Assembly (NCBI GenBank): GCA_003563005.1
Contig: PWTC01000080.1
Coordinates: 1 to 36,776 of the forward strand
Reading direction: 5' to 3'
From: Candidatus Acetothermia bacterium
Lineage (GTDB): Bacteria; Bipolaricaulota; Bipolaricaulia; Bipolaricaulales; Bipolaricaulaceae
Length of the DNA stretch: 36,776 nt
The position numbers and the translations under genes were made by a program. This document shows, in pieces, positions 12,873 to 15,837 of the stretch (position 1 is its first letter; every line of letters begins with the position of its first letter). The notes below the pieces were generated by a model. The model was not told where the DNA came from and searched no databases. It saw nothing but the letters and a program-made list of their open reading frames with translations.

Positions 12873-12893
12873 GACCTGCGAGAGGAGGTGGGT

Positions 12894-13520
12894 ATGCGAG
12901 ACAGAAGGTTGCTCATGACGGGCACGTTCTTGGTGGGCGCTCTGGTCTTGATCCTTGCCGGTTGCACGAACAACTGGAGGTCGAGCCCGCCGCGTGCCCT
13001 GTTTGCCGTGCGCCCGGCCGAGGGCGAGGCGCCGCTCAACGTGACGTTCGATGGCTCGCTGTCGGTGGACCAAGGGGCGAAGATCGTGGAGTACGTATGG
13101 GAGTTCGGCGACGGGTCGCGCGCAGTGGGTCCGATCGTGTCGCACACCTATACGCGGGGCGGGACCTATAAAGTGAACCTGCGCGTGTTCGATGCGGCAG
13201 GCCAGTCGGACGAGCGCAGCACCGAGCTGCGCGTCCACCATCCCAAGCCGACCGCGGCGTTCAAATTCGCCCCGCAACGTCCTGCTACCGGCGAGACGAT
13301 CTGGTTCGATGCCAGCGATTCCTCGAGTCCCAACGGGCGTATCGTCGACTACCGGTGGTCGTTCGGGGACGGGGAGTGGTCGTCCGAGGGACCGGAGGTG
13401 CAGCACATGTACTGGTCGGGCATGACATACCCCGTGACCCTGACGATTACGGATGAGGTGGGGCAGAAGGACACCGTGACCCACAAGATCGAGGTCGTTG
13501 GAGGTACCCCATGCCGGTGA
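12894..13520 (+). CDS. PKD-repeat lipoprotein (first of three)
   Basis: The product is 208 residues. A lipoprotein signal ends in LILAGC with the lipidated Cys at residue 24. Two PKD domains follow, each with the family core: YVWEFGDGS with HTYTRGGTYKVNLRV in the first, and YRWSFGDGEW with QHMYWSGMTYPVTLTI in the second. PKD domains are Ig-like surface modules used in binding or spacing. No catalytic domain is attached. The ATG at 12894 has AGGAGG five bases upstream; a GTG at 12888 overlaps that site and is less likely. It overlaps the next PKD gene by 10 bp. Confidence 0.85.
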   Translation: MRDRRLLMTGTFLVGALVLILAGCTNNWRSSPPRALFAVRPAEGEAPLNVTFDGSLSVDQGAKIVEYVWEFGDGSRAVGPIVSHTYTRGGTYKVNLRVFDAAGQSDERSTELRVHHPKPTAAFKFAPQRPATGETIWFDASDSSSPNGRIVDYRWSFGDGEWSSEGPEVQHMYWSGMTYPVTLTITDEVGQKDTVTHKIEVVGGTPCR

Positions 13521-14152
13521 GAGGCAAGCGCTGGCGCCGAGGGGGGATCCTGGCGCTGCTGGCCCTCGTGGTCGGCCTGGCCGGTTGCCTTCCCGACCGG
13601 ACGCAGACCGGCACCATGGCGGTCATCCGGGCGGAACCCAGCCAGGGCCTGGCTCCCTTGGACGTGAGCTTCGATGCAGGTGCCTCCAGGGATCCCCAGG
13701 GGGAGATCACCGAGTGGCTATGGGACTTCGGAGACGGCTCGGGGGTCGTATCGGGGCGCAGTGTGGAACATACGTTCTCCGTGCCAGGTGTGTACGTCGT
13801 GACCCTGGTCGTCGTCGGGGAGTCGGGCGTGGGGCGCGATAACATGACCATCCGCACGGTCAACAATCCCCCCACGGCACGGATCTCCTTTCAGCCACGC
13901 GATCCTTTCGAGGATGAGCTCATCATCTTCGATGGCTCGGGATCTTCCGATATCGACGGTGAGATCGTCGAATGGGACTGGGAGTTCGGTGACGGCGCTT
14001 CTGGATCAGGCGAATACGCGACGCACACCTACGACTCGCCCGGGGACTACCGGGTGCGCCTCACGGTCCGTGACGACCAGGGCGCCGAGGATACCACGTG
14101 GGCCAACGTGAACGTCCGGCCGTGTCCGGGCGGAAACTGCGGACGCAGGTAG
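13511..14152 (+). CDS. PKD-repeat lipoprotein (second of three)
   Basis: The product is 213 residues with a basic N-region and lipobox VVGLAGC (Cys26). Two PKD repeats are seen: EWLWDFGDGSG with HTFSVPGVYVVTLVV, and EWDWEFGDGASG with HTYDSPGDYRVRLTV. The tail PCPGGNCGRR holds two extra cysteines. The start overlaps the end of the first PKD gene, so both come from one message. A hairpin at 14176-14200 lies just after the stop. Likely anchored at the envelope surface; ligand unknown. Confidence 0.85.
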   Translation: MPVRGKRWRRGGILALLALVVGLAGCLPDRTQTGTMAVIRAEPSQGLAPLDVSFDAGASRDPQGEITEWLWDFGDGSGVVSGRSVEHTFSVPGVYVVTLVVVGESGVGRDNMTIRTVNNPPTARISFQPRDPFEDELIIFDGSGSSDIDGEIVEWDWEFGDGASGSGEYATHTYDSPGDYRVRLTVRDDQGAEDTTWANVNVRPCPGGNCGRR

Positions 14153-14175
14153 CGAGAGCCCGCTTCCGCGTGCGG

Positions 14176-14200
14176 CGAGGGGCGCTCGGAGCGCCCCTCG
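14176..14200 (+). terminator. Strong GC hairpin after the second PKD gene, probable terminator
   Basis: CGAGGGGCGC (14176-14185) pairs perfectly with GCGCCCCTCG (14191-14200) around the loop TCGGA, 23 bp after the stop at 14152. The following CTTCTGG is only weakly T-rich, so it may pause or end transcription inefficiently. Confidence 0.6.
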
Positions 14201-14229
14201 CTTCTGGTGGTGGTGGCAAATGGAGCGCA

Positions 14230-14235
14230 TATACT
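14230..14235 (+). promoter_or_regulatory. Candidate -10 box for the third PKD gene
   Basis: TATACT ends eight bases before the ATG at 14244, which has no Shine-Dalgarno. No clear -35 is seen. It lies right after the hairpin at 14176-14200, which suggests a new transcription start, possibly leaderless. Confidence 0.4.
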
Positions 14236-14243
14236 TGCAGGCT

Positions 14244-14885
14244 ATGAGAACGAAATTCGTGTTGCTGGCTATGTTGGTCTTGAGCATCGCTCTGGCGAGC
14301 TGCACGCGGCCCCCTGGACTGCAGGCAGTCATCCGGACGCAACCGCAGTCGGGCCGGGGACCCTACCCGCTCGAGGTGACGTTCGACGCCTCCGCGTCCC
14401 ACGGGGAGGCGATCTCCAGGTACGTCTGGGACCTGGGCAAACGTGAGAACGGGCACCACGAAGGCGCCGCCGAGGGGATGATCGTGCGCCACACGTATAC
14501 GGTGCCCGGGAAGTACACCGTCTACCTCACAGTGCGCGATGAGACGGGCAACACTGCGCAGACTTCCAGGACGATCGATGTACGCTCGCTCCCACCCGTC
14601 GCCCGCTTTGAGGTCCCCACACTGAACGCCGGCACGGTGCCGGCCAAGAGACGCGTCGAGTTCGACGCGAGCGCCTCCTATGATCCCGACGGCTCGGTTG
14701 AGTGGTATCACTGGGACTTCGGTGACGGATCCGCGATCGTCTCCACGCGCCAGCCCACGGTGAGCCACACGTACACCATGGTCGGCTGGACCACGGTGCG
14801 GCTGATCGTCGAGGACGACTTCGGGGACGAGTCCCCGCCGGAGACCCTGACCTTTCAAGTGCTCGCGCCCTGCTGTGGCGGGTGA
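14244..14885 (+). CDS. PKD-repeat lipoprotein (third of three)
   Basis: From the ATG at 14244 the product is 213 residues with a clean lipoprotein signal MRTKFVLLAMLVLSIALASC (Cys20). An ATG at 14220 is in frame but would put extra residues before the signal and would overlap the -10 box. Two PKD-like repeats follow. The first is altered (RYVWDLGKRENG in place of WDFGDG), with HTYTVPGKYTVYLTV. The second is canonical (WYHWDFGDGSA, HTYTMVGWTTVRLIV). The tail LAPCCGG has two cysteines. Its end overlaps the endonuclease V fusion gene by 11 bp, tying that repair gene to this message. Confidence 0.82.
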   Translation: MRTKFVLLAMLVLSIALASCTRPPGLQAVIRTQPQSGRGPYPLEVTFDASASHGEAISRYVWDLGKRENGHHEGAAEGMIVRHTYTVPGKYTVYLTVRDETGNTAQTSRTIDVRSLPPVARFEVPTLNAGTVPAKRRVEFDASASYDPDGSVEWYHWDFGDGSAIVSTRQPTVSHTYTMVGWTTVRLIVEDDFGDESPPETLTFQVLAPCCGG

Positions 14886-15837
14886 GCTGAGCGCACCGGA
14901 TCTCGTCGGGTACGCGGAGCGCCTGATCCGGTCCGTCCCTCCTGGGCGCGTGACGACGTTCCGCGCCCTGGCGGATGCGCTCGGGGATCGCAGCGCCGCG
15001 CGCTTCGTCGGTGCCTGGATCGCTGAGCTGGAGGCGCGCGGTGCGCCCGTCCACCGCGTCGTGTACGCCTCGGGGGAGGCGGGCCGCTCGGAGTTCGGCG
15101 ACAGCGCCGCCGCCCTCGCTCAGCTCAGGGCAGAGGGTGTACGGATCGTGGGGCAGGGCGTGGAGCCGCTTGAGGCGTACTTCTTCTGGGACTTCCCGGA
15201 TGACCGTCCCCTGGCACGCCTGCGGGAGGAACAGGAGGAGATCGCCGCGCGCGTGCAGCTGGAGCCGCTGGGGGAGATCGAATCCATCGCGGGCTTGGAC
15301 ATCGGATTTCGTGACGGTAGGGCCGTCGGCGTGTACTGCCTGTGCGGTTCGGATGGCGAACTCCTGGACTACGTGTGGGTGGAGGAGGAGGTCCGCTTCC
15401 CCTACGTCTCAGGCTACCTTAGCTGGCGGGAGCTGCCCTTGCATCTGGCGGCCGTCCGGAGGGCACATCAAGCCGGCCTTGCTGCCGATGTCCTTCTGGT
15501 AGACGGAAACGGAATCCTCCACCCCAGGAGGGCGGGCATCGCATCCCATCTTGGGGTGTTCGTCGATCATCCGACCGTTGGCGTGGCCAAGCGCCGTCTC
15601 TGCGGAGAGGTGAACACCGCAGGGATGGTGCTCGGCGAGTGGCGCCCGGTGGTGATGGGGGACGAGACGGTGGCCGGCGCCCTGCGGACAGGGAGGAATC
15701 AGACCCTGTTCGTGTCTCCGGGGCACCGCGCCGATGTCACCACGTCCCTGGCGCTGGTCTCGGACCTCACCCGGGGCGGGGTGCACCCCCCGCCGATACG
15801 CTGGGCCCACGAGCTCGCCGCGGAGGCCCTGGCCTGA
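14875..15837 (+). CDS. nfi: Alkyltransferase-like (Cys-less) domain fused to endonuclease V
   Basis: The product is 320 residues with two domains. Residues about 10-75 look like the DNA-binding domain of O6-alkylguanine-DNA alkyltransferase: IRSVPPGRVTTFRALADALG, ARFVGAWI and PVHRVVYASGEAG. The usual PCHRV reads PVHRV (Val59), so the methyl-acceptor Cys is gone, as in Atl proteins. Residues about 110-320 are endonuclease V, which nicks DNA beside deaminated bases such as inosine. Asp142 (AGLDIGF), Glu186 (LSWRELP), Asp210 and His216 (VDGNGILHP) match its catalytic residues. A fusion with an active alkyltransferase is known from Ferroplasma. The GTG start at 14875 overlaps the PKD gene. Confidence 0.88.
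   Translation: MAGELSAPDLVGYAERLIRSVPPGRVTTFRALADALGDRSAARFVGAWIAELEARGAPVHRVVYASGEAGRSEFGDSAAALAQLRAEGVRIVGQGVEPLEAYFFWDFPDDRPLARLREEQEEIAARVQLEPLGEIESIAGLDIGFRDGRAVGVYCLCGSDGELLDYVWVEEEVRFPYVSGYLSWRELPLHLAAVRRAHQAGLAADVLLVDGNGILHPRRAGIASHLGVFVDHPTVGVAKRRLCGEVNTAGMVLGEWRPVVMGDETVAGALRTGRNQTLFVSPGHRADVTTSLALVSDLTRGGVHPPPIRWAHELAAEALA

Follow-up and report, generated by a model that had tools for sequence, protein, structure and literature searches.

A cysteine-less alkyltransferase-like domain fused to endonuclease V in Bipolaricaulota: a candidate lesion-recognition nuclease

Introduction

What can an alkyltransferase fold contribute to a repair nuclease once its methyl-accepting cysteine is gone? 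The question is raised by a locus in Candidatus Acetothermia bacterium, within contig PWTC01000080.1, of which the whole 36,776-nucleotide stretch analysed here is referred to as the window; the corresponding genome is a 1.40 Mb assembly. The window encodes a protein in which an O6-alkylguanine alkyltransferase (AGT)-derived domain lies N-terminal to endonuclease V (EndoV) in a single chain, and in which valine occupies the position of the acceptor Cys. Because it has no acceptor Cys, the N-terminal domain (N-domain) cannot take over alkyl groups. The reading favoured here, at a probability of about 0.55, is that this domain would serve as a lesion- or DNA-recognition module resembling the alkyltransferase-like (ATL) proteins and feeding an active EndoV nick, the whole forming a two-domain DNA-repair nuclease.

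Results

Architecture of the fusion protein

Translation and Pfam analysis establish the fusion open reading frame that an earlier note on this DNA had placed at 14875–15837, and both its coordinates and its description are right. The EndoV residues are matched by alignment with the T. maritima EndoV structure 2w35. The features of the gene, in order, are:

14875..15837, plus strand: fusion gene, Cys-less AGT/ATL-like domain plus endonuclease V (320 aa, GTG start; full-length relatives found)
14923..15141, plus strand: AGT DNA-binding domain PF01035, residues 17–89 (Pfam 43.7 bits, E 2.5e-11, curated cut-off 27)
14959..14961, plus strand: F29, at the position of the base-flipping Tyr (Atl1 Y25) in the alignment; among 57, 42 have Y, 14 have F and 1 has H
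15001..15003, plus strand: R43, at the Arg-finger position by alignment (Atl1 R39); retained by 22/33 same-family members
15046..15060, plus strand: PVHRV motif, which reads PCHRV in active AGTs; no variation at H60 or R61 within the window's family
15049..15051, plus strand: codon of V59, the methyl-acceptor position by alignment (active AGTs have Cys here, canonical ATLs have Trp)
15085..15087, plus strand: R71, one alignment column away from R69 of Atl1, a loop residue that contacts the lesion; basic (R/K) in 33/33 same-family members
15238..15810, plus strand: endonuclease V domain PF04493, residues 122–312 (Pfam 172.9 bits, E 8.4e-51, cut-off 23.4)
15298..15300, plus strand: D142, EndoV catalytic (T. 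maritima D43 by alignment); invariant in 99 fusions
15403..15405, plus strand: Y177, PYxxx wedge motif (T. maritima Y80 by alignment); invariant in 99 fusions
15430..15432, plus strand: E186, EndoV catalytic (T. maritima E89 by alignment); invariant in 99 fusions
15502..15504, plus strand: D210, EndoV catalytic (T. maritima D110 by alignment); invariant in 99 fusions
15589..15591, plus strand: K239, EndoV active site (T. maritima K139); present in 98/99 fusions, with one alignment gap
15808..15810, plus strand: H312, in the alignment column of T. maritima H214; phylum B fusions and E. coli EndoV have Asp here

Both DNA-binding motifs named in the earlier note are present in the N-domain: PGRVTTF, with Phe at the base-flipping Tyr, and ARFVG, containing the Arg finger R43. 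The domain carries the winged helix-turn-helix of AGTs as judged by PF01035 and R43, though Phe replaces Tyr; the Cys in PCHRV that marks an AGT or Ogt is missing, the motif reading PVHRV. The nuclease half, as had also been claimed, retains all catalytic residues, and the five active-site positions are intact in 98–99 of 99 fusions from two phyla. By its D-E-D site (with K and H/D) and its PYxxx wedge, the predicted protein is an endonuclease V, with an RNase H-like fold expected from the family match. The T. maritima and E. coli endonucleases V (nfi) share all of these catalytic positions, but they are stand-alone proteins that lack the AGT-derived N-terminal domain.

Fold and kinship of the N-terminal domain

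The AF2 model of the N-domain, built on a three-sequence alignment, is of low-to-moderate confidence (pLDDT 62). In a Foldseek search of the PDB with this model, ATL structures fill the first three places (3gx4, 3gva and 2kif) and AGTs come next, with a probability of 1.00 and query TM values of 0.55–0.70. Since the E-values are 1e-3 and above, weight is placed on the agreement among the best matches, and the predicted structure accords with the AGT/ATL fold that the earlier note had assumed. The full-length AlphaFold model, also from three sequences, is poor (pLDDT 42) and is no basis for active-site orientation.

In a tree of 107 alignment columns with long branches, 57 fusion domains from the window's own phylum, Bipolaricaulota (phylum A), form a separate clade (98/97 support), apart from 31 Ogts and 19 stand-alone Trp-type ATLs of the same phylum, each of the three groups having 97–98% support. 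The N-domain is thus distinct from both the ATL and the Ogt of the phylum, and the tree does not support its derivation from either. S. pombe Atl1 and V. parahaemolyticus ATL resemble the window domain in fold, in the absence of the acceptor Cys, in the helix-turn-helix and in the retained PxHRV frame; unlike the fusion, they have an acceptor Trp, stand alone and pass lesions to nucleotide excision repair. The window protein shows the AGT fold without the acceptor Cys (in the pLDDT 62 model), whereas its acceptor residue is Val, Trp being found only in 5 of 42 fusions of a second phylum (phylum B), and its clade does not group with the known ATLs. Acceptor residue and tree both set the domain apart from the canonical ATLs, with which it shares the lack of Cys.

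Occurrence and gene neighbourhood

The genomes surveyed are mostly draft assemblies. Among 100 phylum A genomes, the fusion is found in 34 of the 40 that belong to the window's family, one copy ending at a contig edge; six further families carry it and two do not. About 290 genomes of other bacterial groups yield a single full fusion (in genome G234), whose phylum is phylum B, the second phylum carrying fusions. That phylum has 11 fusions in 294 genomes, and 39 of 170 genomes in the family of G234 encode one, a fortieth match being EndoV only. Within the genomes sampled, the AGT-EndoV fusion is a conserved feature of two bacterial groups and seldom occurs outside them. A scan of public contigs yields two close relatives and no more, and a search of viral contigs found no relative.

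The fusion gene is immediately preceded by genes of a different kind:

12888-14885, plus strand: three consecutive PKD-domain genes with lipobox-like N-termini, the last one overlapping the fusion
14220..14885, plus strand: PKD-domain protein with a lipobox-like N-terminus, directly upstream; overlaps the fusion ORF by 11 nt

From this overlap, the PKD-domain gene at 14220..14885 is probably co-transcribed with the fusion. Of the loci examined, all 15 from the same family show this adjacency and none from other families does; the placement of a probable surface lipoprotein beside a repair enzyme may be mere operon inertia.

Residue at the acceptor position

Tabulation of the acceptor residue in two-domain homologues, a check proposed in the earlier note, extends the reported change of PCHRV to PVHRV to the whole family. 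The 33 aligned same-family fusions have V in 26 (one as PVHRI), A in three, and S, G, L and I in one each, with Cys in none. Because Cys is absent from all 33, sequencing error and chance are ruled out as the source of PVHRV, as is a lone mutant. A conserved Cys elsewhere in the same-family N-domains was also looked for and none was found, 28 of the 33 having no Cys at all, so that an alternative acceptor Cys is rejected for the window's family. It is most improbable that alkyl transfer persists through another nucleophile, such as C243 of the EndoV domain: this residue is invariant in 33/33 same-family members, but it sits in the other domain, is common among EndoVs (it is also in E. coli EndoV, RLCG), and 28/33 N-domains are themselves without Cys. 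In the S. solfataricus OGT, substitution of Ala or Leu for Cys keeps the fold, and the C119A form binds O6-methylguanine DNA (PMC4605297), so that the replacement is compatible with the fold and, for Ala, also with lesion binding.

Outside the window's family the position is mixed. Other phylum A families contribute 14 fusions with Cys (PCHRV, PCYKV, PCWRV/PCWKV, LCYKV) and 10 with Ser, and the 42 phylum B fusions have Cys (23), Trp (5), Ala (4), Thr (4), Val (3), Ser (2) or Arg (1), the PWHRV and PWFRV forms among them being the canonical ATL signature. Across the fusion tree the acceptor Cys is replaced by V, A, S, T, G, I, L, R or W. When label changes are counted on the tree built from 98 full-length fusions, the presence or absence of Cys requires at least 8 changes, of which at least 5 are forced by well-supported branches, and three are needed within phylum A alone; because the root of this tree is not fixed, some of these switches could be gains rather than losses of Cys.

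The surroundings of the acceptor also vary. In Cys-bearing phylum A fusions from several families (L039, L040, L042-L044, L047, L049, L051, L054), Tyr or Trp replaces the His after Cys (PCYKV, PCWRV), making alkyl transfer by these proteins itself uncertain. Fusions of family f4 (L048, L052, L108-L113) have an acceptor Ser, most with a Cys two residues earlier (for example DCPSYRV). The phylum B Cys-bearing fusions L136-L138, L141-L143, L157, L161, L162 and L166-L172 often show H-x-H-x-x-C-x-C-H-R around the acceptor. In phylum B a Cys at position −2 accompanies the acceptor Cys in 21/23 fusions, against 2/19 without it (kinship not corrected), and this pairing hints at a possible metal site or disulphide.

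Co-occurrence with a separate alkyltransferase

The genome of the window also encodes a PCHRV Ogt, which groups with the Ogts of the same family. Within phylum A, an Ogt accompanies the Cys-less fusion in 38 of 43 genomes and the Cys fusion in 4 of 14 (Fisher p = 5e-5, kinship not corrected), and the five Cys-less-fusion genomes in which none was seen are 61–87% complete assemblies, so that the missing Ogt can be a matter of incompleteness. Every one of the 19 phylum B genomes that carry a Cys-less fusion also has a separate PCHRV protein. Where no separate AGT was found (17 genomes), the fusion has Cys in 12, namely ten of phylum A together with G712 and G713 of phylum B, and the other five genomes are incomplete. 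This correlation fits a division of labour in which a fusion that is the sole AGT retains its Cys, which is dispensable elsewhere. Since Cys is apparently lost only where another gene supplies alkyl transfer, the joined domain probably finds damage for EndoV and does not itself repair it. Several phylum A genomes (L086-L103) encode three AGT-fold proteins, namely an Ogt (PCHRV), a Trp-type ATL (PWHRV/PWQRV) and the fusion. UvrA is encoded in the window's genome, a point counted in favour of the ATL-like reading.

Loss of Cys in lineages with a separate AGT, its repeated and independent occurrence, and the disappearance of the Arg finger from some members could also be expected of a degenerating N-domain, the remnant of a bifunctional AGT-EndoV that was once active, and tolerated since Ogt took over. 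That explanation is unlikely in view of the selection acting on the domain. In close pairs, N-domain dN/dS is mostly 0.05–0.2, similar to that of the EndoV domain, with a maximum of 0.46 in one pair, and these values disfavour decay. Mean within-family identity is 63% for the N-domain and 65% for EndoV, and no N-domain-deleted member is seen among the same-family matches. H60, R61 and E87 are invariant in 33/33 same-family members. Together, the similar purifying selection on both domains and these invariant residues indicate that the N-domain is used.

The Arg finger is replaced by P, A or G in 11/33 same-family members; such replacement would be expected to weaken base flipping and counts against lesion recognition, and the absence of the finger from one third of the family suggests that the bound lesion may have drifted. 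The main rival, a possible but doubtful one, builds on this variation: the former AGT domain would sense no lesion and would serve to bind or scan DNA, giving EndoV higher affinity and processivity on its customary deaminated substrates inosine, xanthine and uracil. Variation at the acceptor (V, A, S, G, I, L) alongside retention of the residues that support the fold is what such a module would allow, and PMC10779285 relays the speculation that EndoV contacts in an archaeal fusion speed movement along DNA. It accounts less readily for the invariance of the PxHRV His and Arg and of the Glu: in AGTs these residues surround the lesion pocket, and mere anchoring could do without them, though they may be structural. 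For recognition of a lesion, the alignment offers a lead in R71, which lies near Atl1 R69, a residue that touches the flipped base (PMC10779285).

Discussion

Proposed role of the fusion

As a lesion-recognition nuclease, the protein would work as follows. Its N-terminal domain, presumably descended from an alkyltransferase fold, would use the retained helix-turn-helix, the H/R of PxHRV and the Glu to bind DNA like an ATL, to flip or sense a modified base and to hold it. The EndoV domain would then nick the same strand 3' of the bound lesion, if the two domains are coupled, and the nick would start excision repair, alkyl removal being left to the separate PCHRV alkyltransferase (Ogt). Candidate lesions are O6-alkylguanine, a deaminated base, or both. 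Two points count against this ATL-like reading: the aligned acceptor residue is mostly aliphatic, unlike the Trp of studied ATLs, and studied ATLs have no nuclease of their own but hand lesions to nucleotide excision repair. A more far-reaching version is put forward tentatively, as a possible but less likely reading: lesion-triggered incision within one protein, in which the disarmed AGT domain would flip and hold O6-alkylguanine (or something similar) and deliver it to EndoV for an adjacent nick. Alkylated bases would then have an excision route that needs neither alkyl transfer nor UvrABC, evolved several times by Cys loss once a second AGT was present.

Relation to known systems

The earlier note rightly pointed to an active alkyltransferase-EndoV fusion from Ferroplasma acidarmanus (AGTendoV; Kanugula et al. 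2005, as relayed in PMC10779285). Compared by the description given there, that enzyme likewise joins the C-terminal part of an AGT to EndoV, but it is archaeal and active, whereas the window fusion is bacterial and Cys-less. The further suggestion that no Cys-less fusion had been described does not hold, since the same 2023 review reports archaea with an ATL-EndoV fusion (Tubbs et al. 2009) and repeats a speculation that its EndoV acts like XPG. The archaeal ATL-EndoV is the closest precedent, sharing a Cys-less AGT-like domain and EndoV; as far as that description goes, the window family differs in being bacterial, in having mostly Val and in its Cys-bearing sister proteins. With both fusions in the literature, the architecture and the idea are already known. 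What appears new, being absent from the literature searched, is the bacterial family, its aliphatic and other non-Trp acceptors, the recurrence of the loss in two phyla and its association with the presence of a second AGT.

Significance

The occurrence of Cys and Cys-less forms of one fusion in related bacteria constitutes a natural experiment in the passage from a suicide alkyltransferase to a damage sensor, and the switch between the two forms has happened several times and goes together with a second alkyltransferase in the genome. Should the sensor truly direct EndoV, the family would provide a direct link between the recognition of alkylation and incision, a link until now only proposed, for the archaeal ATL-EndoV and for ATLs acting through UvrA/XPG.
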